Under the pieces are notes generated by a model, which did not search any database, was not told the origin of the DNA, and saw only the letters and a list, made by a program, of their open reading frames with translations. The position numbers and the translations under genes are program-made. From NCBI GenBank assembly GCA_015069495.1, contig SVIN01000012.1, positions 1 through 50,261 on the forward strand: a DNA stretch of 50,261 nucleotides, in the 5' to 3' direction. This document shows, one piece after another, positions 10,845 through 47,899 of this stretch; the first letter of the stretch is position 1, and each line of letters begins with the position of its first letter. This DNA is from Clostridiales bacterium. Lineage in GTDB: Bacteria > Bacillota > Clostridia > Christensenellales > Borkfalkiaceae.

Positions 10845-10856
10845 TATTGTAGTCAC

Positions 10857-13184: not shown

Positions 13185-13229
13185 GCGCCAAATAATAACG
13201 AAAAAATGAAGAGTTAAGGAGTAAGAGCT

Positions 13230-19765: not shown

Positions 19766-19773
19766 GAGGAAAT

Positions 19774-33400: not shown

Positions 33401-35640
33401 TAACGATACCGAACAGCGTGGAAAAAATGGGCAGACGCGTGTTCAAATCTTGTGAAAGCTTGAACTCGTTAAGCTTGCCGTTTATCGGAAAAACGCGCGC
33501 GTTGAGCAGATTTTACTCCCTCAGTTATACAATTCAAAGCCGAAAAGCCGACAATCATTTGGCGATTACGCTGACGGATATGGATAAGGTTTACAGATCT
33601 CTGTTCAGGGGCTGTGATATTGTAAAAAGCGTAACCTTTGGCAAAGACGTGACGGAAATTCAATCGGGCGCGTTTGCGGGCAGCGGGTTGACGACGATTC
33701 AATTGCCTGGCTCGTTAAAGGAAATTAAAAATAATACCTTTAAGAATTGTAAAAAATTGGTGTCGGTAACGGGTGGCGAAAACGTTACGACGATTGGTAA
33801 AAAGGCATTCTTGCACTGTGCAAACTTAAACACCGCAAGCTTTACCAAGCTGACGGAAGTGGAAAAATCGGCGTTTAAGGGTTGCCGTACTTTAAGTACA
33901 CTTGGCGATATTCCCAACTTGCAACGCATCGGAGTGAGCGCGTTTGAGGGGTGTAAGGGATTGACGGCTATTACGTTGTCCGACTCTTTGAAGACAATTG
34001 AGAAAAACGTGTTTAAAAACAGCGGTTTAACGTCCGTAAAGTTTACAAGCGGATTGGAAAAAATTGAGAAGAATGCATTCAACAACTGTGATTCGTTGAC
34101 GGAAGCAGATTTGTCGAATACGGCCGTCACGAACATCGGTGTAGGCGCGTTTAGCAAATGTAACGTATTGGCGTCCTTGAAATTGCCGAATGGTTTGAAT
34201 AAAATCCCTCGTAAATTGGCGCAAAATTGCGGTAAATTGACGGCGGTGCAGATTGGACAAAATACGCAGACTATCGGCAAAAAAGCCTTTGCAAATACGG
34301 CGATAGCAGAATTAATTATCCCTGAGCAGATAGAACAAATTGGCGCCAAGGCATTCTATGGATGCGATAAGTTGACGACCTTGAATATTCCTTCTACTAT
34401 GAAGAGAATCGGGCGTCATGCGTTTGCAAACACAGATAACTTAGTGCACGTAAAAACACCTTTCTTAGGGAATAAAAAGAACAGCCTTATGCGTGGTTTC
34501 TCGTACGTATTTGGGCGTGAAAAGAGTTTAAAATCTTTGGAAGTTACCGACTTGCGTGTGGCGAAATCTTCCACGTTCAAAGGCGCGAAAAACGTTACAA
34601 AAATCATTTTAAACGAAGGGGTTGAAACAATCAAGGCGGGCGCGTTTAAGGGATGCTCGCTTGAGGAGATGGTTCTGCCGAGTACGCTGAAAACCATTGG
34701 TAATAAGGCGTTTGCAAAATCTCAAGTAAAACAACTTGATTTAAGCGTCACGTCCGTATCAAAAATCGGTAAAGGCGCGTTTAAAGATTGTGTTAAGCTG
34801 ACCACCTTAACGTTGCCTGAAGGGCTGGAAACAATTCCCGCAAGAATGGCGCAAGGTTGTAAAGCATTGACGGACGTTTCTATACCGAACAGCGTGAAAG
34901 AAATTGGGAAATTTGCCTTTGAAAATTGTAGCAAGTTGCAAGCTCTGAACCTTTCGAATAACGTGCAAACGATCGGGAAGGGCATGGCTTCGTATTGTTA
35001 TAATCTTTCCGAGGTAACCCTCTCGTCGGCTTTGACGGAAATTTCCCAAGGCGCGTTTAAACACTGCACCTCGTTGAAGGAAATTTCTATCCCTGATTCC
35101 ATTACGAAAATTGCGAAAAATGCATTCAACAGTTGCAGTGCATTAAAAGAAGTTCATTGGGGTACAGGCTTAAAAGAAATAGACAGAAAAGCTTTCAACG
35201 GCTGTGCGCTTACTTCGCTTGCACTGAACGACGGTGTGGAAAAAATCGGCGGTAAAGCATTTGCCAATAACAAATCGTTGGCAAAGGTTGTCTTGCCCTC
35301 GTCGTTGGAAACAATCGGGATGGACATTTTAAAAGGCTGTTCTGTGGAAAGCTTAACCCTTCCCCATATTGGTTGGAAACGTATTTTACCCCTTCAAATA
35401 TCCTACGTGACGGATAGCAAGCATATTTCTTCGCTTACGATTACAAACGCGAAGAGATTGGCAAATAATTTCTTGGAAGAGCTGGGGAACTTAAGAGAAT
35501 TGACGATTACGTGTTCTCTTGATAAGGTAACGGAAGATACGTTTGCAGGCAGTGAAAAGCTTACAACCGTACGCTTGAATCCTGCCTTGGAAGCATACGA
35601 ATCCTTCTTCCCTGAAGGTGTAGTGACCTATATTAATTAA
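30469..35640 (+). CDS. Giant membrane-anchored BspA-like leucine-rich-repeat protein
   Basis: 1723 residues. The N-terminal 315 residues are cytoplasmic, starting with a Lys-rich tail, then a globular part with no recognised family. Three membrane helices follow (about 318-338, 345-367, 391-411), placing the rest outside. From about residue 420 to the end runs a long series of LRR_5/BspA-type units of about 23 residues (IxxxAFxxCxxLxxVxLPxxL). A 280-residue block with an unusual insert (PFIGKTR ... LTDMEK) starts near nucleotide 32458 and repeats at 33298. A third diverged insert copy appears near 34460 (TPFLGNKKNS) and a fourth near 35360 (PHIGWKR). Such repeats bind proteins or host surfaces. 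Its topology (cytoplasmic N-terminus, outside repeats) matches that of the 2685-residue protein, so the two may work as a pair of sensors or adhesins. Confidence 0.8.
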   Translation: MAKTEKKNKKKKGAGKNSPAPQNLEKGQGVAKIKNENVDAKKKAISIEEKMATMDEADFWGSFVEYNPPKADTAYSVSEQNQFLGRRAERPFSNSILLYDRFHYKRAAVVREALCTALLEKDTGKSVGLLPRFPLTFVWRTAHTATRGNVEQTFGITGREWLHCVDALTKYIEKTEAFQKNAKGGQPVLVQDLFDLTESEYEELFLPKGKEAIDVVKAAVEQDIAESVCIEQKWKKIWRYPYKVSLLKTKGGLFSKNDAAILRRAGIRYLNDIRKSNIYKLKNLFLDHYLQNIVEEINAAFKEDHERRLDTRLKVYPFVFGGAAMLTSAAVGYIYQYRLLKNTPMTVLIFAMLGVWLACVGMVIWAGKRTKYRKLKRPEYVYYTRDIRRVILALSIFSLFSIGSVSFFYERYDGYNDLLFYRNLKGGNIAVAGLADKSADVISIPETIDGKTVVEIDRGAFFHDKMAEVIIPETVEKIDAHVFVNCRALQKITLPKSISKINKRTFVNCESLKSIQLPEGLTKISKRAFKNCTALTEVQMPETIEVIEDKAFSKCLGLYTVENLSYVKSIGKKAFLDCPLSQEVDLSNAVYIGKNAFKGVWGMSAVTLNPALKTIEKGAFAKCVTMLKVNGLEGVTHIEKNAFKDCIRLVSISSLDSVKQIDKKAFSGCAKLANVTFGSSLQVMKGKAFESCTALTKVTVPNSVQKMGRRVFDDCENLNDLTLPFIGKTRKSSKLYSLHYTIKSRKVDSRLAVTLTDMEKIYSASFKDCDIVKSVAFDEGVTEIQAGAFEGCGLNTLTLPSTLQEIKKETFKDCTNLVSITGGDGITSIAKNAFQNCENLTGVNFQKVTKIGQSAFAGCSALADLGNISNLEHIAENAFAGCASLKAVTLPKSVTTILPNVFTNSGLQTITLSGVTKISNNAFNGCASLTSVEGLQNVEEIDRKAFSGCTKLTNVTFGSALKEIRAKAFENCTSLTQVTIPNSVEKMGRRVFKSCESLNSLSLPFIGKTRALSRFYSLSYTIQSRKADNHLAITLTDMDKVYRSLFRGCDIVKSVTFGKDVTEIQSGAFAGSGLTTIQLPGSLKEIKNNTFKNCKKLVSVTGGENVTTIGKKAFLHCANLNTASFTKLTEVEKSAFKGCRTLSTLGDIPNLQRIGVSAFEGCKGLTAITLSDSLKTIEKNVFKNSGLTSVKFTSGLEKIEKNAFNNCDSLTEADLSNTAVTNIGVGAFSKCNVLASLKLPNGLNKIPRKLAQNCGKLTAVQIGQNTQTIGKKAFANTAIAELIIPEQIEQIGAKAFYGCDKLTTLNIPSTMKRIGRHAFANTDNLVHVKTPFLGNKKNSLMRGFSYVFGREKSLKSLEVTDLRVAKSSTFKGAKNVTKIILNEGVETIKAGAFKGCSLEEMVLPSTLKTIGNKAFAKSQVKQLDLSVTSVSKIGKGAFKDCVKLTTLTLPEGLETIPARMAQGCKALTDVSIPNSVKEIGKFAFENCSKLQALNLSNNVQTIGKGMASYCYNLSEVTLSSALTEISQGAFKHCTSLKEISIPDSITKIAKNAFNSCSALKEVHWGTGLKEIDRKAFNGCALTSLALNDGVEKIGGKAFANNKSLAKVVLPSSLETIGMDILKGCSVESLTLPHIGWKRILPLQISYVTDSKHISSLTITNAKRLANNFLEELGNLRELTITCSLDKVTEDTFAGSEKLTTVRLNPALEAYESFFPEGVVTYIN
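32458..34137 (+). repeat. 840-base internal duplication in the leucine-rich-repeat gene
   Basis: The block beginning AAAGCGTTCAGCGGTTGT at 32458 recurs in frame at 33298 as AAAGCCTTCAGCGGTTGT, a period of exactly 840 bases or 280 codons. Both copies encode AFSGC, NVTFGS, NSVxKMGRRVF, LPFIGKTR and LTDM in the same order, with clear divergence between copies. Confidence 0.8.
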
Positions 35641-35705: not shown

Positions 35706-37628
35706 ATGATATATTCTTGTCAACATTGCGGCGCATGGTTCACCTCTGAAGAAATCAACAAAGCGTCGAAAAATTGCGACGCGGTAATTTCCTGTTCGTT
35801 TTGCGGTTCAAACAACGAATTTTTAAACCCGAACGCTTCTCGTTTAACGAGAGGGTACAGTGCGCTGGAAGAAGGCCGTTTCGCGGATGCCATCAACATC
35901 TTTACCATGGAAATCGAGGAGAGTGAAAAGAAACGTAAAACGCCCTCCCCCGACGCCTTTTTAGGCTTGGCGTTGGCTCGATTCGGCGTGCGTGTTATTT
36001 ATGACAGCACGGATGCAAAGAGAATGGGAGATCCGTTGGTGAGCTGTTGGGATTGCAACGATAACTATTTTGCCGATGACGATAACTTTATCAGGGCGCT
36101 GAAAAGCTTTGATCAATACAGTTCGTCGTCCGATTTTAGCGATTCGACGTCCGACCGTCAGCAGATTCAAACAAGCGATAGCCTTAGAGAAAAACGTAAA
36201 CTTACGAAGATTCAAGACCATATTGATACCATCAAGGATTACTATTTAGAAATTAAAAACAGTAAAAAGAAAGGGTTCCAATACGGTGCGTTTATTGCCT
36301 TTGAAGACAACGACGGAAACGGCGCTCAATGGGAAACGGTTGCAACGAAAATGAAAAATGCGTTGCCGAAATTGCCCGTGTTTATGCCGCCTGATAAAAG
36401 CATGTGCGATTCCGATTTGCAATACGAAGCAAGATTGTTGTATGCATTGCACAATTCGAGAACCATGTTGGTGTTGATTGGCGACAACCCGAGTACGCGT
36501 TTGAGAGATATGTACACGTGGTATTACAACAAGGGGCATGAAATCAATCAATTGGCAAGTTCGAAAGGGGAAAACCTTGGGTTTGTTTTACATAACATCA
36601 ATATCCCCATTCGCGTCAACAATAAAACGGTAGATAACGTATTCGACACGAGAACGTCGGAAAAGTATTCTAAATTCGTTGCTCGTTGGAACGGGATTAT
36701 CACCGAGGGGATACAGCCTAAGGAAAAGGAAAAAGAACCCGAAGTTGCTATGGTAACCCCGACCGCGCCTACTTCACAGACGGAAGATTTGTACAAGATT
36801 TTGGACGAACATCATTTGGCGTTTGGGCATTATCCGCAAACGATTGAAAAGTCATTTGCTGTGACAAATCATTTCCAACAGTACGAGAAACCTGACAAGA
36901 TGGATAGCCATGGTTGGAAGGTTTTGTTTAGAACGCACGAAGGCATCCCGTATACGTGGTATCGTGACGAAGAAGTAAACGGCGAAAAATACCGCGCGGT
37001 ATATTTCATTAAATTCCGTGAAAAATGCTCGGTTAGAGAATCGAAAGAAAAAAACGTTTTACAGAGAGATCACGGTTACGTGCTTAGAAAAATCTATTGT
37101 TTCAAATTTAACCCGATTATTTGGGACGTGGAAAAAATTCATCCCAATACCTCCATGGCGGTGCTTGTTTCTGATCGCGGTATAGACTGCCAGGAATATA
37201 ATAATCTTCAAATGGACAACGATTGGGATTCCTGCAGTATTCATTCCTGGTTGAATCACGAGTTCTATGACAACGCATTTGAGGGGCAAGAAAAGAAAAT
37301 CGTATGTACTTATGAAAGTGCTTCGGATGATAGAGTCTTCTTGATGGACAAAGAAGAAGATCGTATGTTTGTCGATAGACATAACTACATATCAGGGAGT
37401 GATTATTACAAGTGCATTGGCGGTATGGGAGACGGCTGTATTGAAGATTGTTGGGTAACCGACAAGAGTCTTTCACACAATGGCGAAGCTTCGGTTATGC
37501 ATCATACGACGAAATACAGCTTGGACAGAGTAATGGTAGACAATACGTCGGTAGCCGTATTGCCGAAAATTGTTATCGCACTCAAGAGCGGTGATGCAAA
37601 ACGCTTTACAACAGATGATAAACACTGA
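35706..37628 (+). CDS. Zinc ribbon - TIR-like - DUF6273 protein
   Basis: 640 residues. A zinc ribbon opens it (C5, C8, C30, C33). A helical region with TPR-like character follows (RLTRGYSALEEGRFADAINIF, about 50-75). Residues about 191-285 resemble a TIR domain: FQYGAFIAFED strand, LPVFMPPDKS, then LHNSRTMLVLIGDNPS. Where the active TIR protein at 9045 has its glutamate, this one has MYTWYYNKG, so it is probably not an NADase. From about 375 the protein matches the DUF6273 pattern: FGHYPQT, CSIHSWLNHEFYDNAF and a C-terminal strand region; that domain is often fused to bacterial zinc-ribbon or surface proteins. No membrane helix. It is the last gene of the 25-kb operon, with GGAG before the ATG and a strong terminator after. 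The TIR call is tentative. Confidence 0.65.
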   Translation: MIYSCQHCGAWFTSEEINKASKNCDAVISCSFCGSNNEFLNPNASRLTRGYSALEEGRFADAINIFTMEIEESEKKRKTPSPDAFLGLALARFGVRVIYDSTDAKRMGDPLVSCWDCNDNYFADDDNFIRALKSFDQYSSSSDFSDSTSDRQQIQTSDSLREKRKLTKIQDHIDTIKDYYLEIKNSKKKGFQYGAFIAFEDNDGNGAQWETVATKMKNALPKLPVFMPPDKSMCDSDLQYEARLLYALHNSRTMLVLIGDNPSTRLRDMYTWYYNKGHEINQLASSKGENLGFVLHNINIPIRVNNKTVDNVFDTRTSEKYSKFVARWNGIITEGIQPKEKEKEPEVAMVTPTAPTSQTEDLYKILDEHHLAFGHYPQTIEKSFAVTNHFQQYEKPDKMDSHGWKVLFRTHEGIPYTWYRDEEVNGEKYRAVYFIKFREKCSVRESKEKNVLQRDHGYVLRKIYCFKFNPIIWDVEKIHPNTSMAVLVSDRGIDCQEYNNLQMDNDWDSCSIHSWLNHEFYDNAFEGQEKKIVCTYESASDDRVFLMDKEEDRMFVDRHNYISGSDYYKCIGGMGDGCIEDCWVTDKSLSHNGEASVMHHTTKYSLDRVMVDNTSVAVLPKIVIALKSGDAKRFTTDDKH

Positions 37629-37647
37629 TTATTGACAACAGAAAACA

Positions 37648-37686
37648 ACCCGACGGATTGTATGCATAGCCGTCGGGTCGTTTTTT
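37648..37686 (+). terminator. Strong terminator closing the 25-kb operon
   Basis: ACCCGACGG (37648-37656) pairs perfectly with CCGTCGGGT (37670-37678), followed by CG and a run of T residues. It lies 20 bases after the stop of the DUF6273 gene and separates that operon from the ESCRT-like one. Confidence 0.9.
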
Positions 37687-37772
37687 GCGCGGTTAACAGT
37701 GGGAAAATATACGCAAAAACATGGTTATTGTGGCTTTTTCGGTAAACCAAAAAAGAAAAATGACGAAAAGTC

Positions 37773-37801
37773 TTGACATGATAAGAAAATAGGAGTATAA
37801 T
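37773..37801 (+). promoter_or_regulatory. Consensus sigma-A promoter of the ESCRT-like operon
   Basis: Perfect TTGACA (37773-37778), 17 bases, perfect TATAAT (37796-37801). Transcription should start near 37808 and give a leader of about 63 bases. Seven genes follow with short gaps and no terminator until 46539. Confidence 0.85.
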
Positions 37802-37809
37802 AAAAATAA

Positions 37810-37831
37810 TAAATATATGAATATATATTTA
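37810..37831. promoter_or_regulatory. Inverted repeat TAAATATAT-GAAT-ATATATTTA, candidate operator
   Basis: Nine-base arms at 37810-37818 and 37823-37831 lie right at the predicted transcript start. The same half-site forms the palindrome at 12213-12232 in the promoter of the 25-kb operon, there in the opposite arrangement. The 12-mer TATATATTTAGC is shared exactly. A common regulator is possible, with the caution that the sequence is almost all A and T. Confidence 0.4.
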
Positions 37832-37870
37832 GCAACACAGAAAAAGCAAATAAAGCAAAAGGAGTTGCCT

Positions 37871-38458
37871 ATGTCCATATTTCAAAAGAAACCCAAGAAG
37901 AGCCCTGAAGAACTTAGAAAAGAGGCGGAAGCAAAAATAGCGGAAACGTCGAACAAGATGCGTGTTCAAATCGCCTTGTTGGAAAAGAAAAAAGAAACTT
38001 TATTACGCAAAATGGCAGAGGCGCGCCAAAAAGGCTTAAAACAACAAGAAGCGCAAGCAAGAACGTTATTGCAACAAACCATGAAATCTTTGCAAAGACA
38101 AAACGGAATGTTTTTGCAGTTGGAACTTGCCGTTGAATCCCGTGATTTGGTGCGTATGAATGCAGAGTTTTACGATTGCATTGGGAACTTGGCGGATGAT
38201 ATCCTGAACACCAGCGTGGAAAATAAAGAATCGAAAACAAAGCGCGTGAACGAAAAATATAAAAGAGCAATTTTCGAATCGAACAATCAAAAAGAACAAA
38301 TGGATCGTTTCCTTGCGGAAGGCGACGCCGCTTCGGCGATTGGGATGGAAGGAAGCACGTATGCTGAATTTGACGAGGAAATCGACGCTATGTTGGACGA
38401 TATGCAATTTTCTACGGCAGACTACGTAAATAATACGCCGAATAAAACTCGTTTTTAA
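37871..38458 (+). CDS. ESCRT-III (Snf7/CHMP)-like membrane-remodelling protein
   Basis: 195 residues from the ATG at 37871, which has AAAGGAG 6 bases upstream; an earlier in-frame ATG at 37817 lacks a site. The layout is that of ESCRT-III: a short hydrophobic start (MSIF), a basic tail, a long basic helix (about 13-52), a glycine turn at 55, a second helix (about 57-113) with regularly placed small residues, then shorter helices and an acidic C-terminal helix at about 164-179 (YAEFDEEIDAMLDDMQ) like the ESCRT-III alpha5/MIT-binding tail. The piece KMAEARQKGLKQQEAQAR resembles the hairpin tip of CHMP2 proteins. It heads an operon with two Vps4-like ATPases. The N-terminal domain of the next gene is related to it. 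PspA/Vipp1, the known bacterial branch of the superfamily, is the alternative. Assignment is by pattern, not by search. Confidence 0.6.
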   Translation: MSIFQKKPKKSPEELRKEAEAKIAETSNKMRVQIALLEKKKETLLRKMAEARQKGLKQQEAQARTLLQQTMKSLQRQNGMFLQLELAVESRDLVRMNAEFYDCIGNLADDILNTSVENKESKTKRVNEKYKRAIFESNNQKEQMDRFLAEGDAASAIGMEGSTYAEFDEEIDAMLDDMQFSTADYVNNTPNKTRF

Positions 38459-38478
38459 TAGACGTGGGGGATGTATAG

Positions 38479-40194
38479 ATGAACTTTCGTGAATTTAAGA
38501 AAGAAGTAGCAAGAAAGCAGGCGGAAGACGAAACCAAACGCGAATTAACCAATGCGATTACGGCGCTTACCAGAAAACGTGATACGTACACGAAGGAAGC
38601 AAAGGACGCATTGCGCGAAGGAAATACGTCTTTGTATAAGGCAAAGGTTGCCGCGCTTAAATTTGCACTTTTCAATTTAAAGCAGGCGCAGGATATGCAT
38701 GCAAATCTTATGATTGCAATCGATATGCGCGAAATGCAAGGTTTGAGCAAAAAGTTTGTGAAATCATTGGATTCAATCATGGAAAGCGTTTGCAAAACGT
38801 GTAAATCGATTAACCTTGAAAAGAGTCAAAATATTTCGCAACAAGCGATTTTTCAAAACGAAAAAACCTCGCGCGCGTTGCAACAAGTGTTAGAATCCAA
38901 CAATATGGTATTCGAAAGCAGCGTTTCGAGACTTTCCGACGTGAGCGATGACGAGATAAAAGAATTGCTGCAAGACCAAATCACGTCTGATGAAATGGGT
39001 ATGGACAGCAGACTTGACGATTTAGAGCGTGCGTTGTTGGGGGATAGTCCAATGCTCTCGACCAATTCGACTCCTAAAGAAGTTGTCAAAGATGCAGTGC
39101 AATCGGGCTTTGCAATGCCCGCACCTACGATGCCCGCGCCTAAGGCGGAAACCCCGACTTTCCCGTCGGTGGATGATTTACCGCCTCCGAATCTCGCGGC
39201 AAAAGCACCCGAGATTCCTTCCGAGCAAAAACCGAATCCTTATCAGCCGAGCGTGTCTCAAAAACCGAGCGCGCTTGAAGAAGAACATAAAAAGAGCCCC
39301 GAAGACGAGCTTCTTGGCGGGGACGGGGCTGACGGCGGATTTATTTGGGATAACATTCCAAGCATTGGTTTTGAGGATATTGCAGGGCTTGAAGACGTGA
39401 AAGAAGTCGTGCAAATCAAGGTGTTGCTTCCTTTGAAGAACCCCGAAGCTTTTGCGGGTTATGAAAAGAAAAACGGCGGCGGTCTGTGTTTGTATGGCCC
39501 TCCGGGAACGGGTAAGACGATGATTGCGGCGGCAATCGCGAAAGAAATCGGCGCGAAATTCTGTTCGGTAAAACCCTCCGACTTGTTACAACAAGGCGCA
39601 GGTAACACGGAACGCGCGGTAAGAACCTTGTTTAAACAAGCAAGAAAATTCCCTTGCGCGGTTATCTATTTCGACGAAATGGATTCCATTTCTCCGAAGT
39701 CGACCAAATCGCAATACGCGAAACAATTGAGGTCGGAATTCCTTGCGCAGTTGCAAGGTATTGAAAGTTACGGCAAAGATACAGGTAATATCTTATTCCT
39801 AATCTGCGCAACGAATAAGCCTTGGGATATCGACAGCGCATTCCTTCGCCCTGGCCGTTTTGGTACGAAGATATACGTTGGATTGCCCGACGACGGCGCA
39901 AGAGAATATATGATCAACAAACGCCTTACGAAGCTGATCAATCGCGGCGTGGTAGACGTTCATGGGGATATCGACGTAAGCAAAGTGGTAGACTCGACCA
40001 GTGGTTTCAACGGCGCGGATATTACCAACTTCTTGGATAAGATTGAGGAAATTTCTATTATCCGCGGTATTCGTACGGGTGAGAAATTTATCTCCAACGC
40101 AGATTTTGAAAAAGCGTTAGAGGAAGTGCATTCTTCTGTACAGACGGAAGATTTAATCAAGCTCAAAGAATGGCGTGCTGAAAACGATTCGTAA
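38479..40194 (+). CDS. ESCRT-III-like domain fused to a Vps4-like AAA ATPase
   Basis: 571 residues. Residues 1 to about 190 are all-helical and align by eye with the 195-residue protein before it (I-x2-L-x2-K-x2-T, then A-x3-G, then A-x4-L), ending in acidic segments (VSDDEIKELLQDQ, RLDDLERALLGD) like ESCRT-III tails. A Pro/Ala-rich linker runs from about 200 to 285. The AAA domain begins FEDIAGLEDVKE, as in Vps4, katanin and spastin. It has Walker A GPPGTGKT (340-347), Walker B YFDEMDS (D399, E400), sensor ATNKPWD and the FLRPGRF arginine finger (R457, R460), so it should be an active hexameric unfoldase. A substrate-like domain joined to its remodelling motor is unusual. The start is at 38479 after GGGGG, 20 bases from the previous stop. 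Confidence 0.75.
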   Translation: MNFREFKKEVARKQAEDETKRELTNAITALTRKRDTYTKEAKDALREGNTSLYKAKVAALKFALFNLKQAQDMHANLMIAIDMREMQGLSKKFVKSLDSIMESVCKTCKSINLEKSQNISQQAIFQNEKTSRALQQVLESNNMVFESSVSRLSDVSDDEIKELLQDQITSDEMGMDSRLDDLERALLGDSPMLSTNSTPKEVVKDAVQSGFAMPAPTMPAPKAETPTFPSVDDLPPPNLAAKAPEIPSEQKPNPYQPSVSQKPSALEEEHKKSPEDELLGGDGADGGFIWDNIPSIGFEDIAGLEDVKEVVQIKVLLPLKNPEAFAGYEKKNGGGLCLYGPPGTGKTMIAAAIAKEIGAKFCSVKPSDLLQQGAGNTERAVRTLFKQARKFPCAVIYFDEMDSISPKSTKSQYAKQLRSEFLAQLQGIESYGKDTGNILFLICATNKPWDIDSAFLRPGRFGTKIYVGLPDDGAREYMINKRLTKLINRGVVDVHGDIDVSKVVDSTSGFNGADITNFLDKIEEISIIRGIRTGEKFISNADFEKALEEVHSSVQTEDLIKLKEWRAENDS

Positions 40195-40204
40195 GAGGTA
40201 GGAT

Positions 40205-41338
40205 ATGAATTACCAAGTAGATTTTTATCATAGACTTTACGAAAAGAATTACAACGACGCGATTCGCGCCAATGATAGCGGAAACTATGCGTTGGCGTAT
40301 AAAAAGTTTTTAGAAGCAGTGGATTGTTTGCGTAAATTGTCGGTATTAGACCCTGCGAAGGAATACGTGTATTCGCAACGCGCAGAAAAAATGTTACGTA
40401 TCGCAGGCGCAATTCAGGCGAAAGCGGCAACTCAAAACACTCCGCAACGCCCCGCCAATGCGAACGTTTCGTCCAGCTCTATCAACCCGACGTTGGGTTA
40501 TACGGATAATACGCAAATGCAACAAACGCAGACGGGCGAGGATATGAGCCAGTATTACACTTTCTACAGTGCGAGTGATCTTGTGGATGGGTTTGACCGT
40601 GTTATCGGGCTTCAGGAAGCGAAAGAGGCGATTACCGAATACGTTATCAATCCGATTCGATACCCGCAAGCGTATAGCTATAACTTCCTTAGCAGTAAAT
40701 GTATACTGTTAGAAGGCCCCCCGGGAACAGGGAAAACGACCTTTGCAAAAGCGGTTGCAAAAGAGATTGAACAGCCTTTCGTTTTGGTAAACGTGGCGGC
40801 GATGGTAAATTGCTACGTGGGGGAAACGGGGAAAATTATCGACAAGGTGTTTTCTTCCTTGCGTGACTACGTAGAGAAATATAATTGCGGTATCACGATA
40901 TTCTTCGATGAATTTGACGAAATTGCAAAGAGCAGAAGCGGGGACGACAAAGCGTCGCAAACAGCCGTGCCTGCATTGCTTCGTAACTTGGACGGTGTAA
41001 AGGAAAACAAAAACTTCCTCGTCCTTGCAAATACGAACTGTAAAGAATCGTTAGACAGCGGTATTTTAAGTAGATTCCGCCAAAGAATTTACATTCCTTT
41101 ACCCGACAAAAACATGCGTGTACAGTTCTTTAAAAATAAACTTGCGCAGTTAGAACCGCTTTATTTTGAGCAGTTGGATTTAGAGGTATTGGCGGAACAA
41201 TCGGAAGGATTAAGCGGGCGCGCCATTACGCAGGTATGCGATGACTTTTTATACGTTGTCGGCGGTATCAAAGCGGGGATACGTGCGTGTGAAAATTTGA
41301 ATGAAGCTTTGCTGGATATCATCCGCAAACAAAAGTAG
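40205..41338 (+). CDS. MIT-like domain plus Vps4-like AAA ATPase
   Basis: 377 residues. Residues about 7-70 look like a MIT three-helix bundle: [20 protein letters not shown], then [19 protein letters not shown], then a third helix around [16 protein letters not shown]. Vps4 uses such a domain to grip ESCRT-III tails. A polar Gln/Asn/Ser-rich linker follows to about 125. The AAA domain begins [11 protein letters not shown] and has Walker A GPPGTGKT (171-178), Walker B FFDEFDE (D235, E236), sensor ANTN and arginines in SRFRQR (289-294). The whole domain order and length are close to Vps4 (about 430 residues), lacking only an obvious beta insertion. It is expected to form a hexamer that disassembles the ESCRT-III-like proteins encoded around it. 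AGAGG lies just before the ATG. The MIT call is by pattern. Confidence 0.75.
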
Positions 41339-41347
41339 GTAATGATT

Positions 41348-42574
41348 ATGAAACAATGTAAAAACTGTAAGGCAACGTTGGAAGAGGATGCTGTATTTTG
41401 CCCCGCCTGCGGAACGAAATACGGTGATGAAACGCAATCGCAAGAAGAAAAATCTCTATTTTTAAAGTATGCCAACTATTTGGATGCCGAAGCGTTATAC
41501 AAGGTTGCTTGGGCGAAAGAACAAGGCATCGTAAAAAGCGAAATTCCCAACGAAGCGGAAATATTATACAAGATGTTGGCAATGAAGGGACACCACGGCA
41601 GTATGTTTAGATACGCGATGTTGTTGATTCAAAAATCGGAAATGGAAGAAGCAAAGAGATGGTTGCAATTGTCAGCATCGCAAGGTTACGTGGAAAGTAT
41701 CAACTACTTAAAGACGATGATGCCTGAGGTTCAGCTTGAAACGAATGCGGGCAAGCGTGAAGCGGTAGTGGTAGAACGTGCGCCTACACCTGCACCTGCG
41801 CCTGTTACCGTTCCATTGGGCAATGCGCTTTCGGGTGAAGCGGTCTTTGAAAAGATGGATAAATCGGTGGTTGAAATTTATGCAACGGAAGCAAAACAAA
41901 CGGCTTATTCGTCTGGTTTTATCGTATCAAGCAAAGGGTTTGTGCTTACGAACGCGCATGCTATCACAAACAATAGGGGCGAACCTTATCAGAAGATTGT
42001 CGTACAATATAAAGGCGAAGCGTATGACGCGCAAATCGTAGCGTTCGGTAAACCTGCGGACGGCAAACATGACAACCTCGACCTTGCGTTGTTGTTTATT
42101 CCTGGGCTAAACGATGCTTCGGCTGTTGATTTCGGTCAGGATAATTCGTACAGAAACGGTAACAAGGTATACTTAATCGGTAACTCGTTGGGGAATGGTA
42201 CTTGTATTACGTCGGGGATTATCAGCGATGCAACGAGGGCAATGCCAGGGCTTTCCTATCCGTATATCATGACGGATGCGGCGGCAAATCACGGCAACTC
42301 AGGCGGTCCGTTGGTAAATGAAAACGGAGAAGTCATCGGCGTGTTGGTTGCAGGCGTTCAAAACGCGGAAGGGATGAATTATGCGATTCCCGTAGATATG
42401 GCAAAGGAATTCCTTGCGCACGTTATTACCTCTATGAAACTTCCTCAACAAGCATTGGGCGAGTTGAGCGAGCAAACCTTCACCAGTTTATCAGTGAAAG
42501 AAAAGATAAGCGCTTGTATTGAAATTGTCATTGACACCTTGTCGGTTATTTTGAAAGTGCTTGCAATTATTTAA
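41348..42574 (+). CDS. Zinc ribbon - Sel1-like - trypsin-fold serine protease, cytoplasmic
   Basis: About 408 residues. A zinc ribbon comes first (CKNC ... CPAC). A Sel1/TPR-like helical part follows to about residue 115 (SMFRYAMLLIQKSEMEEAKRWLQLSASQGYVES). A Pro/Ala linker leads to an HtrA-like protease domain with a full triad: H204 in LTNAHAI, D245 in NLDLALL and S318 in GNSGGPL. There is no PDZ domain and no signal peptide, so, unlike most HtrA proteins, it should act inside the cell. The last 20 residues (IEIVIDTLSVILKVLAII) are hydrophobic and may touch the membrane. Two ATGs, at 41342 and 41348, are possible; AGGT fits the second better. Such proteases activate effectors in several bacterial immune systems; that role here is inferred. 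Confidence 0.8.
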   Translation: MKQCKNCKATLEEDAVFCPACGTKYGDETQSQEEKSLFLKYANYLDAEALYKVAWAKEQGIVKSEIPNEAEILYKMLAMKGHHGSMFRYAMLLIQKSEMEEAKRWLQLSASQGYVESINYLKTMMPEVQLETNAGKREAVVVERAPTPAPAPVTVPLGNALSGEAVFEKMDKSVVEIYATEAKQTAYSSGFIVSSKGFVLTNAHAITNNRGEPYQKIVVQYKGEAYDAQIVAFGKPADGKHDNLDLALLFIPGLNDASAVDFGQDNSYRNGNKVYLIGNSLGNGTCITSGIISDATRAMPGLSYPYIMTDAAANHGNSGGPLVNENGEVIGVLVAGVQNAEGMNYAIPVDMAKEFLAHVITSMKLPQQALGELSEQTFTSLSVKEKISACIEIVIDTLSVILKVLAII

Positions 42575-42594
42575 CATATAAAGGAGAAAATCTG

Positions 42595-43488
42595 ATGAAA
42601 GAAAAAATTAAAAACATAATGGTTGCGCCTAATGCGGACTACGTTGTTTGGGCAGAAGACCTCAGCAATATCGTTCGTGATACGACGTTGATGGTTAGTT
42701 CTGGTTGTGTCGCGCTTTACATTGTTAACGGTGTTTTGAAGAGTATCAACATCCCTGGCCGTTCGCTTATTAAGTCGAAGGCAGAAGAAAAAGACAACAG
42801 CAAGCTCGATTTGATTTGCGTAAACGTAGATAAAGTATTCGAAATGACCTGCGAAGTGTCGGGGATTCCTTTTAAAGATTCCGAGCTGAATTATGAAACG
42901 ACTGTAGGCGGACGCGGAGAATGTAAAATCAGAATTGCACAGCCTTGGCCTTTGTATGCGGCGTTTGGCCGTGTGCCTCTTACAGCCGATGACATCGCGG
43001 CGAACGTTAAGTTGAAACTTAATGAAATTATGACAAGCAGACTTGCCGAAGTGTTACAGAATTACGATTATGGCAGTGTAATGACGCAACAATCGGCGAT
43101 CGCTGCGGATATTGAAAAGAGATTTACGCAATCGCTTGGCGATATTGGGTTGGAAGTTGTAAGCTTTGCTTTGGCGGGTATTTCATTCAGTGAAGAATAC
43201 CAAGAAAAGAGAAAAGAATTTTTTGAAATGGAAAATTTGCGCAAAGAACAAAAACAACAACGCAGAGAAAAAGAACGCGAACAACGCGCGGAAATCGACA
43301 ATATTATTGCGATTGCAAACGCAACGAAGGACTTGAATCCCTCGCAGGCAATGCCCGTAACACCGCAAACGCCTACGATGTATAACACGTCGGCGAATGT
43401 AAATCAAGGTGTAAAATATTGCCCTAGCTGCGGTACAAAAATGGATCAATCGGCTGCATTCTGTTCGGGTTGCGGCAAGAAACTTTAA
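42595..43488 (+). CDS. SPFH domain protein with C-terminal zinc ribbon, second paralogue
   Basis: 297 residues, the same build as the protein at 10912: SPFH core (YVVWAEDLSNIV, LMVSSGCVALYIVNG, FKDSELNYETTVGGRGECKI, QPWPLYAAF), charged helix (KEQKQQRREKEREQRAE), linker and zinc ribbon (C276, C279, C290, C293). The two paralogues share most motifs but differ across the length, so they are old copies. SPFH proteins form large rings or scaffolds on membranes, and the B. subtilis YdjI relative works with a PspA protein, itself an ESCRT-III relative; its place inside an ESCRT-like operon fits that pairing. AAGGAG lies 8 bases before the ATG and the next gene starts 15 bases after the stop. Confidence 0.85.
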   Translation: MKEKIKNIMVAPNADYVVWAEDLSNIVRDTTLMVSSGCVALYIVNGVLKSINIPGRSLIKSKAEEKDNSKLDLICVNVDKVFEMTCEVSGIPFKDSELNYETTVGGRGECKIRIAQPWPLYAAFGRVPLTADDIAANVKLKLNEIMTSRLAEVLQNYDYGSVMTQQSAIAADIEKRFTQSLGDIGLEVVSFALAGISFSEEYQEKRKEFFEMENLRKEQKQQRREKEREQRAEIDNIIAIANATKDLNPSQAMPVTPQTPTMYNTSANVNQGVKYCPSCGTKMDQSAAFCSGCGKKL

Positions 43489-43503
43489 TTGGAGGATAAA
43501 ACA

Positions 43504-44976
43504 ATGGGATTATTTGATATTTTTAACAAGGATAAAAAGAATACGGAAATCAACAACGCAAACAAGCAAAACCTTATCTCTACGCTTACGCAAATCGGTA
43601 TGTCGTGTAAAAACGTAGACGCGCAAAAGCTTATCAGAGATATTACAAGCAGGCTTTCCTCGCAAAGCGAATCCTCGAATACGGGGCTTTTGGACGTAGA
43701 CAGCAAAATCAACAACTTGTTGGCAAGCGCAAATACCGCGGTATTGAAAGGTCAATATGCGACGGCAATCATCAAATTGTATGAAGCAAACGAAATTGCC
43801 ATTGAAAGAATGCAGCTTTGTCCTATCGGCGGCAGACAGGTTTCCAGTAGTAAAAAGGCTTCTTTTGCGAAGGTAGAAGAAACAAGAGAAGAACAGCTTC
43901 AAAAGAAGGTGGAAGAACTTTCCGCGAAACTTACCAGCTATCAAGAAGAAAAAGAAGTTCTTAAGAAGTTGAATGCAGAAACGCCTAACAACGCGGTAAT
44001 CTTAAGCAGAGCGAACAGCATTAACACCAAAATTTCGGCTACTTTAAATCAAATTAACGCTGTAAACGTTGAAATTCAAAGAGAAGGCTTGGCGGTTGCA
44101 ACGATTGAAACTTCTGGTTTTGCAGATACGCTTGTATCGGATAGAAAGATTTCGGATACCGAAATGCAGGTAAACCAAGACAAGCTTATCGCACAGAATC
44201 AAGAAAGAGCAGAAACGCAGGCAAACAATGCGGCGGCTATGGCAGCGTTGAATCAAGGTGCGGTAGGGCTTTTCGGTAGCGATCCTTTTGCGGAAACCAA
44301 TCAAGGGGCGTTTGCGGCTACTGACCCTTTCGGTAACGTGGTAGGTGCAACGGCAGACCAAGCAACGGACGCGAAATATGGTTCTTTCAATGGCAATGAA
44401 ATGACAAGCACTTCTATGCTCAATGACGTTAAGAAGGCTCTTGAGGAACTTGAACGTTGCCAAGATATGTACGATGATAAAATTCAGGATTCTAACGATG
44501 AATTGTTGGATTTGAATTCGCAGCTTCGTCCTTTGTTGGAACGCAGACGCAACGCATCGCCTTCCGAATGCTTGATGTTGGACAGTCAAATCGATAGACT
44601 CAACGCAAAGAGAACGGCTGTTATGAGCGCGATTTCGTCCTACTCGCAAGCAAGTTCGGCTCTTAGCGATAAGGCGGCTATGGTTGAACAATTGAAGACG
44701 CAGCAAGACCTTATGCTTACCAATGAAAAAGTTGACAAGCTTACGGGCGGTAGATTTGCGGATATCCAGGGTATGGCTATGTTCATCAATGATGCCATTG
44801 AACAAGGTAATCAAAAATTGGAAGAAATCAGAATGGCAAAAGCAGTTGCGGATTCTACGGATATCGAAACGGGTTCTGCATCTGCAGCGTCGGCTGTCTT
44901 TGCGGATATGGGCGGTATGACTAAGGATGAAAATAAATACGCTATGCTTGAAGCATCCGTAGGTTTGACAAGATAA
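43504..44976 (+). CDS. Coiled-coil protein with two ESCRT-III-like helical hairpins
   Basis: 490 residues from the ATG at 43504 (GGAGG 8 bases upstream). It opens with a short amphipathic piece, MGLFDIFNKDKK, like the membrane-inserting start of Snf7. Residues about 65-105 resemble a MIT or TPR helix pair (NNLLASANTAVLKGQYATAI). A first long hairpin spans about 125-200 (EELSAKLTSYQEEKEVLKKL, then NSINTKISATLNQINAV). A Gly/Ala/Asn-rich linker with AETNQGAFAATDPFG follows. A second hairpin lies at about 305-400 (ALEELERCQDMYDDKIQDSN, then MLDSQIDRLNAKRTAVMSAI), ending in a mixed acidic tail. I do not recognise a named family. Two linked ESCRT-III-like units or plain coiled coil are both possible. 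Its position before the last AAA gene suggests it is a substrate of the ATPases. Confidence 0.6.
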   Translation: MGLFDIFNKDKKNTEINNANKQNLISTLTQIGMSCKNVDAQKLIRDITSRLSSQSESSNTGLLDVDSKINNLLASANTAVLKGQYATAIIKLYEANEIAIERMQLCPIGGRQVSSSKKASFAKVEETREEQLQKKVEELSAKLTSYQEEKEVLKKLNAETPNNAVILSRANSINTKISATLNQINAVNVEIQREGLAVATIETSGFADTLVSDRKISDTEMQVNQDKLIAQNQERAETQANNAAAMAALNQGAVGLFGSDPFAETNQGAFAATDPFGNVVGATADQATDAKYGSFNGNEMTSTSMLNDVKKALEELERCQDMYDDKIQDSNDELLDLNSQLRPLLERRRNASPSECLMLDSQIDRLNAKRTAVMSAISSYSQASSALSDKAAMVEQLKTQQDLMLTNEKVDKLTGGRFADIQGMAMFINDAIEQGNQKLEEIRMAKAVADSTDIETGSASAASAVFADMGGMTKDENKYAMLEASVGLTR

Positions 44977-44997
44977 TTTAAAAAAAGAGGTTCGGAT

Positions 44998-46533
44998 ATG
45001 AACGTACAATTTATGTTAAAGTCAGCGGAAGCGATGGCTGCAAAAGGTGAAAAGGAGCTTGCTTTTGGTATGCCGAGCGGTAGACAAAAATTGCTTACCG
45101 CGGCAAATCAATACCGTCAAATTGCTCAAAATGATGCGGAAAACAGCGAGATGTATCTTCAGCTTGCGCAAAATTGCGAAAATAAGGCGAATAACATGGC
45201 GGCTGCCGCACCTGCCAATGCAAACGGTAACGTAGGCGCGAGTAATTATTCCGCGAATAATAACACGCCCCCGCCTTCCGCAAGCCAAAATGCCGCCGAA
45301 CAAAAGAAACAAGAGGTTACCGCGGTAATCAATGAAGAAGAAGTTTCGATGGAGGAAGCGTTGGAACGCTTGAATTCGCTTACTGGTTTGGCAGGGGTGA
45401 AGAACAGCGTGCAAGATTGGATTTCGCAAATTCGTGTTTTTAAATTTAGAGAAGACCGCGGACTTCCCGTGCCTGATGACTTTTCCTATCACCTTGCGTT
45501 TACTGGTAACCCTGGTACGGGTAAAACGACGGTTGCAAGATTCATGGGGCATATTTACAAGGGCCTTGGGATCTTGGAAAAAGGGCACTTGGTCGAAGCG
45601 TCAAGCAGTGACATGGTTGCTGGTTACGTGGGGCAAACTGCACCTAAAACAAGGGCGCTTGTTGAAACGGCGTTGGACGGCGTATTGTTTATCGACGAAG
45701 CATATACGCTTAGCGCATCGAAAGGGAACGACTTTGGTCAACAAGCGATTGACGAGCTTTTGAAATGTATGGAAGACTACCGCCGCAGATTGGTGGTCAT
45801 TGTTGCGGGTTATACCGATTTGATGAAAGAATTCATTGAAAGTAACCCTGGGCTTCCTTCCCGTTTTGCAAACGTAATTGAGTTTGACGATTATACGGGC
45901 GAAGAGTTGATGAAGATTTTCGATGGCCGTTGTAAGAAGATGAAATACGATCTTACGCCAGTGGCAAGACAAATGCTTGTTTCGCACTTTGATAAACTCT
46001 ACGAGAAACGCGATAAAAACTTCGGTAACGGGCGTACCGTACGTAACGTTTTCCAACAGGTAGTCAACAAGCAGGCAAAGAGAATAGACAAAATCATTCA
46101 AACCTTGCCCCCCGATCAAATTTCAAATGAAGTTTTGACGACGATTACGGACGCGGATTTGGTAGGTATTGTTGGTGATGAATGCATCAGCAAGATGATT
46201 GAATATGACCGCACGAAGGCAGAACTCAACGATGGTATCATCATGGGGCACGTTGCGCAGAATAATCTTCCCGCTGCGGCTACGGCATTCTGTTCGCGTT
46301 TGGAAAGCTTGCTTAGATACGCATACGGTTTTGCAGGGGATCTTTGTACGATGATCAACGAATTGCGTTCGTCCAATCATGAAAAGGCAAAGCTTTTGAA
46401 TCGTAGTCACTATGATTGCATTTATCGTGTTCGCGTATATCGCAACGCGCATATTCATGCATCTGTTCCCGAATCGGAAATCACCCCTCAAGACATTATG
46501 GATTGCTTGAAGATTATTTCTATTCTTGAATAA
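44998..46533 (+). CDS. MIT-like - CbxX/SpoVK-type AAA+ ATPase - HEPN-like C-terminus
   Basis: 511 residues. Residues 1-65 form three helices resembling a MIT domain ([19 protein letters not shown], then [16 protein letters not shown], then [18 protein letters not shown]). An Asn/Ala/Pro linker follows to about 115. The AAA+ domain is of the CbxX/CfxQ/SpoVK type: [15 protein letters not shown], Walker A GNPGTGKT (170-177), pore-like [10 protein letters not shown], Walker [10 protein letters not shown] (D233, E234), [10 protein letters not shown] and a GNGRTVRN segment. After about residue 400 a helical region ends in [11 protein letters not shown] with R482 and H487, an RX4H motif preceded by the helix pattern of HEPN domains. 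HEPN domains with this motif are often RNases. A MIT-like start on a CbxX ATPase is unusual. It ends the ESCRT-like operon, directly before two terminators. Confidence 0.7.
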
Positions 46534-46538
46534 TATGC

Positions 46539-46566
46539 AAAAAAACACCCGAAAGGGTGTTTTTTG
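46539..46566. terminator. Bidirectional terminator after the ESCRT-like operon
   Basis: AAAAAACACCC and GGGTGTTTTTT form a stem around GAAA with an A run before and a T run after, so it can end transcripts from both strands. It lies just after the stop of the last AAA gene. Confidence 0.85.
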
Positions 46567-46590
46567 TTGGGACGTACAAAGCATCGTATG

Positions 46591-46620
46591 AAAAAAGGTA
46601 CCTGAAAAGGTGCCTTTTTT
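46591..46620. terminator. Second bidirectional terminator between convergent operons
   Basis: AAAAAAGGTACC (46591-46602) pairs with GGTGCCTTTTTT (46609-46620) around TGAAAA, with one G-U pair. It lies 34 bases before the end of the minus-strand ABC permease gene and would also end that transcript. Confidence 0.85.
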
Positions 46621-46654
46621 CGTGAAGTATGAACAGCGAAAGCTGAACAACTCG

Positions 46655-47899
46655 TTACTGCTTTTTAAATACAGTTTTCAATATTGTGCCAATCTTGGGC
46701 GGAGTACCGTAAAGCAAAACGCCCACGCGGTAGATTTTTGCGGAAAGTATGCCGATTCCGATGGTAGAGCCAATGAGGATGGCAATCGAAGCGGCAATCT
46801 CATACCAAGCCACCGTACTCATACAAATTCTTGTAAACATAGCCATTGGCGAGGTGAAGGGAATATATGAGCAAACAAGCATAGCAACGTTGTCAATTTC
46901 TCCGCTGCTCATAGAGAACATAACCACCATAAATGCGATGATAAAGAGGAAGGTGATGGGCATTACCGAGGTGTTGATATCTTCAAGTTTGGATGCGGTT
47001 GAGCCGATTGCACCGTAAAGGAATGCGTAGATAAGGAAACCAAGGATGAAGAACACGATAAGGTAGATGAACAATTCAATGGGAATGTCGAAGATGGAAG
47101 CAATCAGCGGATTGGAGAGTGCTTCTTTATTCACATTGTAAAGTAAAATTGCCGTACCGAATACGAGGACAAGCTGTGTAAAGCCTGCGATGCAAGAGGC
47201 AAGCACTTTACCGAACATCATTGCGGTAGGCTTTGCGCTGGTTACAAGGACTTCCATGGCGCGGGAACTTTTTTCGGTCGCAACGTTGGTGGCAACCATT
47301 TGTCCGTAAAGAAGAATGACCATATAGAGTGCAAAAATCATTATGTAGGTATAGAAGAAGTTTTGCATTTGGTCTTTGCCGAGTGTTTGGGTGTTGCTTT
47401 CGATTTGTACGGACATAATTTCGCCTGCTTGTTCGAGGGAAAGTCCGTTTTGTATCATAGCGTTGATACGATATACCTCTTGCAATACGGTGTCTGCAAT
47501 GGCGGTATTGCTATCGTACATCGAAAGATTATTTACATAATAGGTATAGGAAGATGCGCTGTCCATAACAAAGGCGCATTCCGCGTTCCCCGCTACGATT
47601 TCTTCCTTCAATTGATCAACGTTGCCTTCTGCGAGCTTTACGTTGTAATCCACGAAGGTGGTTTCAAAATACTCCTTTACGATGGATGCGAGGTCTTCGT
47701 CTTCGGCGTACACGAGCATGGTCGGAATGTCGGTGGGGGCGGGGTCTGTGACTTCATCCGATTCAAATGCCGATATGATATTGGGGATGAACATGACAAT
47801 GGCAATCAATGCAACTAAGAAGATGGTGAATCCAACGAAGATTTTATTTCTTAAATAGCCTTTCAACTCAAATTTTAGTATTTTTTTAAACTGTTTCAT
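46655..47899 (-). CDS. ABC-2 type transporter permease (NatB-like)
   Basis: 414 residues. A first membrane helix lies at about 20-40 (FVGFTIFLVALIAIVMFIPN), followed by an extracellular domain of about 140 residues, then five more helices from about 185 to the end, including VILLYGQMVATNVATEKSSRAMEVL, the conserved ABC-2 segment. This is the layout of NatB-type exporters, which with an ATPase export sodium or, in relatives, peptides and antibiotics. It lies 12 bases after the ATPase gene and has AAGGAG before its start. The substrate cannot be read from the sequence. Confidence 0.85.
   Translation of the reverse strand: MKQFKKILKFELKGYLRNKIFVGFTIFLVALIAIVMFIPNIISAFESDEVTDPAPTDIPTMLVYAEDEDLASIVKEYFETTFVDYNVKLAEGNVDQLKEEIVAGNAECAFVMDSASSYTYYVNNLSMYDSNTAIADTVLQEVYRINAMIQNGLSLEQAGEIMSVQIESNTQTLGKDQMQNFFYTYIMIFALYMVILLYGQMVATNVATEKSSRAMEVLVTSAKPTAMMFGKVLASCIAGFTQLVLVFGTAILLYNVNKEALSNPLIASIFDIPIELFIYLIVFFILGFLIYAFLYGAIGSTASKLEDINTSVMPITFLFIIAFMVVMFSMSSGEIDNVAMLVCSYIPFTSPMAMFTRICMSTVAWYEIAASIAILIGSTIGIGILSAKIYRVGVLLYGTPPKIGTILKTVFKKQ

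Follow-up and report, generated by a model that had tools for sequence, protein, structure and literature searches.

The window analysed here is a stretch of 50,261 nucleotides from a Clostridiales bacterium (contig SVIN01000012.1), and its positions 37871-46533 hold seven co-directional open reading frames (ORFs) separated by gaps of 3-21 bases. We interpret these genes, with a probability of about 0.64, as encoding a bacterial membrane-remodelling module of the ESCRT-III/Vps4 type (ESCRT, endosomal sorting complex required for transport), which would work at the inner face of the cell membrane and be tied to TIR and protease effectors. An earlier note, made from the letters of the window, had proposed an operon of this kind, and the proposal is supported at the level of sequence: the profile of a protein family found in genes 1 and 2, here called ESC, singles out a gene near Vps4 in an archaeal ESCRT locus. 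What is read directly from the sequences is which families the proteins belong to, that the catalytic motifs are intact, that the gene order is conserved and that there is a relation to the archaeal locus. The seven ORFs lie where the earlier note had placed them. Pfam and NCBIfam models bear out the AAA domains that it had assigned to genes 2, 3 and 7, the trypsin-fold protease, which is gene 4, and the SPFH protein, which is gene 5; the latter two also carry a Zn ribbon. Genes 1 and 6 match nothing above cut-off in Pfam or NCBIfam. The genes are as follows.

Gene 1, 37871-38458, + strand: free-standing ESC (ESCRT-III-like) protein, 195 residues
Gene 2, 38479-40194, + strand: N-terminal ESC domain (about residues 1-190) and classical AAA ATPase with Vps4 C-terminal helix
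Gene 3, 40205-41338, + strand: MIT-like N-domain (residues 1-76) and classical AAA ATPase of Vps4-like length
Gene 4, 41342-42574, + strand: Zn ribbon, Sel1-like stretch and HtrA-like trypsin domain with GNSGG
Gene 5, 42595-43488, + strand: SPFH/Band_7 protein with C-terminal Zn ribbon
Gene 6, 43504-44976, + strand: 490 residues, helical/coiled by eye, adjoining the SPFH gene
Gene 7, 44998-46533, + strand: SpoVK/CbbX-type AAA ATPase with a sub-threshold DUF4145 match

The ESC family, its archaeal relative and its distribution

ESC is a family of about 190 residues; gene 1 belongs to it, as does the N-terminal part of gene 2. When used as single sequences against a small set of neighbour ORFs, the two match ESC proteins of other genomes with best values of 1e-16 and 7e-18, respectively, in confirmation of the claim that the N-terminal domain of gene 2 is related to gene 1. 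The ESC profile also matches both of them, both being rows of that profile. ESC rows more than about 93% alike were dropped before alignment, which reduced 80 rows to 63. Profile A5 consists of 35 hand-chosen rows, of which 29 come from these 63 and four from loci L026, L038 and L040, while the window copies make up the other two; scores of the window against A5 are circular because it contains both window copies. Profile A2 contains no window row.

ESCRT-III proteins have a basic core and an acidic C-terminal tail. The basic front and acidic tail noticed earlier in gene 1 are found in 20 of 20 ESC rows, where the front carries a charge of +5 to +11 and the tail one of -9 to -16; these rows include the Thermococcus protein described below and both window copies. 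The C-terminus of ESCRT-III proteins holds an MIT-interacting motif; at the C-terminus of ESC, the majority of rows in profile A8 share a charged segment, which gene 1, as judged from the alignment, does not have. In ESCRT-III, a helical hairpin (alpha1-alpha2/3) is followed by helices alpha4-alpha5 (PMC8281802; here and below, papers with PMC numbers are cited from excerpts of their texts).

The assignment to ESCRT-III depends mainly on an archaeal protein. When the ESC protein of locus L041 was compared by tblastn with 72,556 PLSDB plasmid records at E 0.01, a single record was found, that of the Thermococcus peptonophilus plasmid NZ_CP014751.1 (5e-4), in which the matched ESC-like protein has 188 residues. 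Profile searches with ESC, and with the MIT-like and B200 profiles introduced below, were made on eight plasmid records chosen from the matches of gene 3. In these records the ESC profile matched the Thermococcus gene at 8.8e-20 over nearly its full length and no other gene at E 10. The Thermococcus locus is annotated as containing a hypothetical protein, PP2C, AAA, a protein kinase and more hypothetical genes, and its AAA protein carries Vps4_C (7.7e-9). In a separate search, the top-listed plasmid match of gene 3 (by coverage x identity) was an AAA protein on the same plasmid, one gene off. The locus fits the 'Main' archaeal ESCRT layout, which includes a kinase and a phosphatase, as described in PMC10936438.

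Profile-profile comparison by hhalign gave 96.9% between ESC and the Thermococcus protein without the window rows and 98.1% with them. The 62 comparison sequences, which comprised 30 helical background ORFs, 20 shuffled sequences, two PspA proteins, and haloarchaeal and other Thermococcus genes, stayed at or below 3.8% in the rows listed, whichever ESC profile was used. In a rerun covering all 50 background and shuffled rows, the values did not exceed 2.3%. In addition, Snf7 is the Pfam family matched by most ESC members (9/35, best 1.7e-5). These results argue for sequence homology of ESC to ESCRT-III, by way of the protein of the archaeal ESCRT locus. PspA (PF04012) has no match in the window's genome, and hhalign of ESC against the two PspA proteins gave 1.3% and 0.4%. 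Of 137 stretches of viral contigs, none was a relative. The neighbours of haloarchaeal Vps4 genes were considered as ESCRT-III references and set aside, as they lie beyond the reach of the ESC profile in both the profile search and hhalign.

Within the window's order, 28 of 297 genomes hold relatives of gene 1, a count that includes the window's genome. With a profile of 35 ESC proteins, matches were found in 44 of 396 genomes of the order, representing 23 of 142 genera, and in none of the three other genomes listed from the window's genus. Across the class the profile matched 4 of 391 genomes, all from the window's order, and across the phylum 2 of 398; one of these two is the window's genome, and the other match is partial, covering 71 positions of an 821-residue frame. 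The ESC operon is patchy and, apart from this partial match, has turned up in the window's order alone. Scanning contigs for ESC yielded 86 relatives, from which 80 loci were kept; these are labelled Christensenella, Christensenellaceae, Coproplasma, Caccovivens, Clostridia, Clostridiales, Eubacteriales or uncultured bacterium.

Two variations within the family may be mentioned here. ESC domains are also borne by an ATPase of the DNA-pump type: in L038 (9506-11419, minus strand) the domain is fused to an FtsK/SpoIIIE-type ATPase (PF01580, 1.6e-45), and L040 and L181 have ESC fusions of similar size, the PF01580 scan having covered L038. At loci L175, L176, L177 and L178 the ESC proteins form a divergent subfamily (profile 2e-8 to 1e-10), and the operon is of the same type, with SPFH, a protein of about 335-348 residues, ESC and AAA in 4/4, a TIR-family gene in four (weak in L177) and a trypsin in three.

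MIT-like and Vps4-like features of the ATPases

The MIT-like start claimed for gene 3 is supported, since the sole Pfam match in its N-terminal 80 residues is MIT (E 0.0029, 18.1 bits, below the cut-off of 30) and the family reaches 2e-7 at best. Among 38 MIT-like N-domains, MIT is the Pfam family matched by most (9/38), ahead of DUF1771 (7, best 0.012) and TPR_8 (5, best 0.002). For the alignment of these domains, 78 rows were reduced to 61, of which 37 were aligned together with the window. In 4 of the 8 plasmid records, the resulting profile matches a Vps4-like AAA gene at its N-terminus, mostly from near the first residues. It also matches 80 of the 82 AAA ORFs in the 80 loci, many of them being its own rows; L046 has a second AAA gene that it misses, and the other miss is a 148-residue fragment. 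Its matches in PDB are weak: 2jpu (0.0044), chitin synthase 1 (0.0084), which we take to be a match to an MIT domain, SKD1 (0.5) and Vps4A (0.74). An MIT-like start had been claimed for gene 7 as well. Gene 7 is indeed an AAA protein, and the family profile does not reach it, so that of the two N-termini for which MIT-like matches were sought, that of gene 3 gave one (E 0.003, under the cut-off) and that of gene 7 gave none. In other loci, a SpoVK-type domain related to gene 7 is fused to MIT and a Vps4-like AAA domain.

The Vps4 C-terminal helix is found in gene 2, where Vps4_C (PF09336) scores 22.5-24.5 bits against a cut-off of 21.3. In one scan this domain was above cut-off in 5 of 7 relatives, with L057 just under and L105 outside the 25 families listed; in a second scan it was above cut-off in 2 of 3, with L105 passing and L094 below. 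As controls, three Cdc48 proteins and one FtsH were scanned, and Vps4_C was above cut-off in none of them.

Walker A and Walker B motifs are both present in gene 3. In the first motif count the ATPases had been pre-selected for Walker A; a recount made without that choice, using loose patterns, found Walker A in 77/77 and Walker B in 76/77 of the AAA ORFs longer than 340 residues, and the one ORF of 82 without Walker A is the 148-residue fragment. The AAA proteins in the loci have about 370, about 490 or about 700 residues, the longest consisting of a SpoVK-type AAA followed by a Vps4-like AAA domain. Proteins of about 490 residues (e.g. L041 10608-12071) have an extra C-terminal region that looks beta-rich by eye; adaptin-like domains are known from archaeal ESCRT loci.

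When gene 3 was searched against PDB, two-domain Cdc48/p97 chains headed the list because the scores of their two domains add up; a single-domain CdvC chain scored 124.3 bits, and the better domain of one yeast Cdc48 chain 106.5. In the AAA tree, the 21 AAA domains from the operons form one clade (99/97), and archaeal Vps4, Cdc48 and FtsH form others. The tree was considered as a proof of Vps4 descent and rejected for this purpose, as the branching order among the clades is not supported. In PMC10936438, the criteria applied to Vps4 include an MIT domain or ESCRT neighbours, and such neighbours would be present at 76/76 loci on the condition that ESC is ESCRT-III. We therefore say that the ATPases probably work in the manner of Vps4, two hallmarks of which are divided between two proteins, and stop short of calling them proven Vps4 because the tree is not decisive.

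Conserved neighbours, proposed mechanism and alternatives

The usual gene order in the 80 loci is SPFH, S110, B200, ESC and AAA, with TIR-family and trypsin genes nearby; S110 is a small protein, and B200 is a second protein of about 200 residues (29 of 47 kept rows were aligned for B200 and 21 of 61 for S110). Counting for each gene those loci that have enough flank (for AAA, at least 1.3 kb downstream), we found SPFH in 63/64, S110 in 70/74, B200 in 76/78 and AAA in 76/76. The helical and AAA proteins thus occur together, 76 of 76 ESC loci carrying an ATPase, as counted from ESC outward only; ESC itself is present in the fetched loci by construction because they were fetched by ESC. As for effector-type neighbours, a TIR-family gene is found in 56/66 loci, a trypsin in 20/66 and either one in 61/66.

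The window's arrangement differs from the usual one: a Vps4-like AAA domain with the C-terminal helix is fused to ESC (gene 2), gene 3 carries the MIT-like domain, and a separate gene (gene 7) encodes the SpoVK-type AAA. Loci L038, L040 and L181 are nearer to the window's order, with a long ESC fusion, ESC, trypsin, SPFH, a protein of 345-348 residues, ESC, a gene-3-like AAA and a TIR-family gene. Gene 6 lies beside SPFH, in the place taken in relatives by S110 and B200 or by a protein of 335-350 residues, and single-sequence and profile searches of the loci found no recognisable relative of it. That gene 6 might be a fusion of S110 and B200 was considered and dropped; it is a counterpart of them only as a positional guess, because no profile supports the fusion. 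Similarly, B200 as a second ESCRT-III is only suggestive (E 0.13; hhalign 41% to Tp_RS10195 and 26% to ESC).

A Zn-ribbon/TPR/TIR-family gene is present in 64/80 loci. The family was clustered by blastp linkage and includes members without a Pfam TIR match; among five members scanned, TIR_2 was above cut-off in four and absent from L088. The window gene at 35706-37628 joins this family by phmmer (2e-12 to L113) and by profile (8e-10), while Pfam alone gives it no TIR match. The operon boundary drawn in the earlier note was too tight in this respect, as this gene shares the conserved neighbourhood. A putative catalytic glutamate column, which we take to be the catalytic TIR residue from its position in other TIR enzymes, has E in 72/73 rows of the family, the window gene included. 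The sole exception, with Ala, is a second Zn-ribbon TIR gene of the window (9045-10637), which is followed by a second SPFH/Zn-ribbon gene (10912-11790); this pair (9045-11790) is possibly a remnant or a remote arm of the same system. Among the trypsins, GxSGG is present in 22/22, each with an N-terminal Zn ribbon, and the histidine motif in 16/22.

Some other genes recur in the loci. In L041, a BREX-type BrxL (12081-13523; PF13337, 5.8e-115) lies within the ESC operon, and the cluster of this gene has seven members of 470-484 residues in the fetched loci, of which the L041 copy was scanned. Two adjacent genes that resemble ABC exporters by eye (57 cluster members) often lie 3' of the TIR gene, e.g. 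in L081, which may be a matter of synteny rather than function.

In the mechanism that we propose, the SPFH protein would serve as a platform on the membrane, and gene 1 and the N-terminal part of gene 2, as ESC proteins, would assemble into polymers on this platform or close to it by means of their basic helical front; B200, the second helical protein, may polymerise too. The AAA ATPases, gene 3 through its MIT-like domain and gene 2 through the ESC domain that it carries, may reach the polymer and extract subunits, so that the polymer would be remodelled at the expense of ATP. The Zn-ribbon trypsin and the TIR protein would be effectors held on the same platform, and the likeliest trigger would be membrane damage, such as phage entry or lysis. 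Here we infer fold, polymerisation, membrane binding, the contact between tail and MIT domain, and effector coupling; the trigger and the immune role are suggested because of the TIR and protease genes, the patchy spread, the likeness to IetA and the BrxL gene in one locus. Vps4 descent and the function of the module are likewise putative. A more tentative proposal, to which we give somewhat less than even odds, is that of an ESCRT-based bacterial immune system, in which a full ESCRT-III/MIT-Vps4 polymer cycle on an SPFH membrane platform would sense membrane attack and gate TIR and trypsin. If so, membrane repair and cell suicide would run on one shared machine.

Several results weigh against the ESCRT-III/Vps4 interpretation. 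On the side of ESC, PcRGLX_3rd matches 8/35 members (best 0.012), near the count of Snf7, and DUF6854 matches 4/35 (best 4.9e-5). No ESCRT-III chain was found in PDB with ESC profiles A1 and A8 or with the Thermococcus protein alone. A search of the window's genome with PF03357 (Snf7) gave no match, gene 1 by itself gave no Snf7 match in Pfam, and the Thermococcus protein is itself sub-threshold for Snf7 (20.5 bits, cut-off 27.3). The ESC profile misses 6/6 haloarchaeal records, and the link of B200 to the archaeal locus is weak, as the values given above indicate. On the side of the ATPases, gene 3 lacks Vps4_C, so that in the window one protein has the MIT-like domain and another, gene 2, has the Vps4 C-terminal helix. 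Among NCBIfam models, which both genes match far below the cut-offs, gene 2 ranks CDC48 (160.4 bits) and PAN (159) before CdvC (150.3); for gene 3, CdvC (136.4 bits) is nearly tied with the anti-phage IteA/IetA model (134.6), and CDC48 is third (123.4). The IteA/IetA cut-off is 510 bits, of which gene 3 and gene 2 (91.1 bits) both fall short. With the PADLOC models of IetA, the match is 2e-40 for gene 3 and 2.4e-28 for gene 2. The AAA tree places the clade of operon ATPases outside archaeal Vps4, with a poorly supported backbone order, and gene 3 and L040 stand apart in it on long branches. Finally, the link to effectors and immunity is one of neighbourhood, and a trypsin is found in just 20 of the 66 loci.

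A different explanation, which we consider unlikely, is that the genes encode an immune signalling filament. In this case, ESC and B200 would form cytosolic sensor polymers restrained by the ATPases, and a sensed phage component would free the TIR and protease effectors, without any cutting of membranes. IetAS, which consists of an AAA ATPase and a serine protease, would be a distant functional parallel. The idea agrees with the TIR-family gene and its glutamate, with the protease genes, with BrxL in the L041 locus and with the patchy spread within the order and genus; genes 2 and 3 also match the IetA/IteA models well, yet far under cut-off. However, SPFH is a very steady neighbour (63/64) and therefore points to the membrane, against a cytosolic filament; the sole archaeal match sits in an ESCRT locus; and PADLOC, which reports mainly single AAA (IetA, TRIP13), TIR and protease models, has no defined multi-gene system for this set.

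It is less probable still that the operon is an envelope-stress system of the PspA type, in which the polymer would shield a leaky membrane and the ATPases would be otherwise employed. The model here is Bacillus subtilis PspA with YdjG/H/I, where the SPFH protein YdjI anchors a protein of the ESCRT-III superfamily at the membrane (PMC8581546), so that a link between SPFH and PspA is known. PspA is rare in the window's order (2/121 genomes over cut-off, 6/121 at E 1e-3, none in the window's genome), and ESC could therefore fill its place. Nevertheless, ESC shows no detectable relation to PspA at the profile level, yet resembles the archaeal ESCRT-III-type protein, and it is accompanied by ATPases with MIT-like domains, whereas no Vps4-type ATPase is named for the B. 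subtilis system in the excerpts of PMC8581546. The poorest prospects are those of a generic AAA unfoldase/protease complex for protein quality control with coiled-coil adaptors, in which the likeness to ESCRT would reflect shared helical composition. The HtrA-like protease, the CDC48 and PAN models that lead the ranking of gene 2, the unresolved placement of the classical AAA clade and the negative PDB searches with ESC are in line with it. Against it stand the hhalign result, in which the 30 helical background ORFs and 20 shuffles stay at or below 2.3%, and the position of the sole archaeal match in an ESCRT locus near Vps4.

Compared with the archaeal 'Main' system (Vps4, ESCRT-III, STK and PP2C), exemplified by T. 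peptonophilus NZ_CP014751.1, the ESCRT-III/Vps4-type module proposed here shares an ESC protein that resembles the archaeal ESCRT-III-like protein over nearly its full length, the MIT-like front of an ATPase and the Vps4 C-terminal helix. It differs in being bacterial, in having SPFH, trypsin, TIR and a SpoVK-type AAA in place of kinase and phosphatase, and in having ATPases that form their own clade. The 'Meth_adaptin' ESCRT of archaea has an SPFH protein with a coiled coil and a Zn ribbon (PMC10936438), and here too SPFH is combined with a Zn ribbon; the archaeal system also has adaptin-appendage and GOLD proteins. Some bacteria have Snf7 or PspA genes beside AAA ATPase genes (PMC11237479). 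Those described there include bacteria with VPS4-like genes and no snf7, and Snf7 homologs with a transmembrane segment and ABC/OmpA partners; unlike in the window system, SPFH and trypsin go unmentioned in the excerpted main text.

The anti-phage ATPase IetA/IteA is a classical AAA protein close to gene 3 by the scores given above, and we know of no ESC, MIT or SPFH partner for it. TIR and trypsin domains act as effectors in conflict systems. Both occur in those surveyed in PMC7159879, as they do here, and in contrast to the window system the excerpted main text has no ESCRT, Vps4, MIT domain or Snf7 term. Bacteria are said to lack a clear Vps4 homologue (PMC7615534), and the pairing of an ESCRT-III relative with a Vps4-like ATPase is described by reviews as absent from bacteria. 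The operon itself is built from known families. Our literature search, which covered titles and the starts of abstracts, with subscription papers mostly outside its scope, found no description of the operon and nothing on Christensenellales with ESCRT. To our knowledge, no ESCRT-III/Vps4 pair had been known in bacteria; if the interpretation is true, this would be the first, in the form of a patchy accessory operon of gut Clostridia. A conserved bacterial operon of ESC, MIT-type AAA and SPFH would change the picture of ESCRT in bacteria and could serve as a simple test bed for the joint work of ESCRT-III, Vps4 and flotillin-type platforms, while the TIR and protease genes in its company suggest that membrane repair may be linked to immunity. 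It would also bear on the origin of ESCRT, i.e. on transfer from archaea to bacteria versus an age greater than the archaeal-bacterial split.

Predicted transcription unit and other genes of the window

The further features around the operon are listed below.

37773-37801, + strand: predicted sigma-70 promoter, TTGACA-17-TATAAT, 12/12 consensus positions
37648-37686, + strand: terminator-like hairpin and U run, 3' of the TIR-family gene and 5' of the operon, z -2.76
46540-46565, + strand: terminator-like hairpin and U run 3' of gene 7, z -3.55
35706-37628, + strand: Zn-ribbon/TPR/TIR-family gene with DUF6273, upstream of and outside the promoter unit
30469-35640, + strand: BspA-type leucine-rich-repeat protein, possible part of the system

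A single promoter for the seven genes, as had been suggested, is likely because of the 12/12 sigma-70 site and the U-run hairpins before the promoter and after gene 7. In the pattern scan of 37500-46800, the remaining 20 sigma-70-like sites score 9/12 each, and the total of 21 is near the mean of 15.6 (standard deviation 3.7) obtained with shuffled sequences. Both flanking hairpins were found in a separate hairpin analysis and are absent from the pattern scan's own list. The BspA-type protein is regarded as a possible part of the system on account of L109 and L113, where the TIR gene carries a fused LRR_5; two TIR_2-positive members of the TIR family also carry BspA-type repeats.

Farther from the operon, at 13230-21507, the window encodes an SNF2-type helicase, which in PADLOC matches DrmD best and BrxH as well; the two large proteins after it have no Pfam match at E 0.001. 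This region looks like a separate defence-type cluster.

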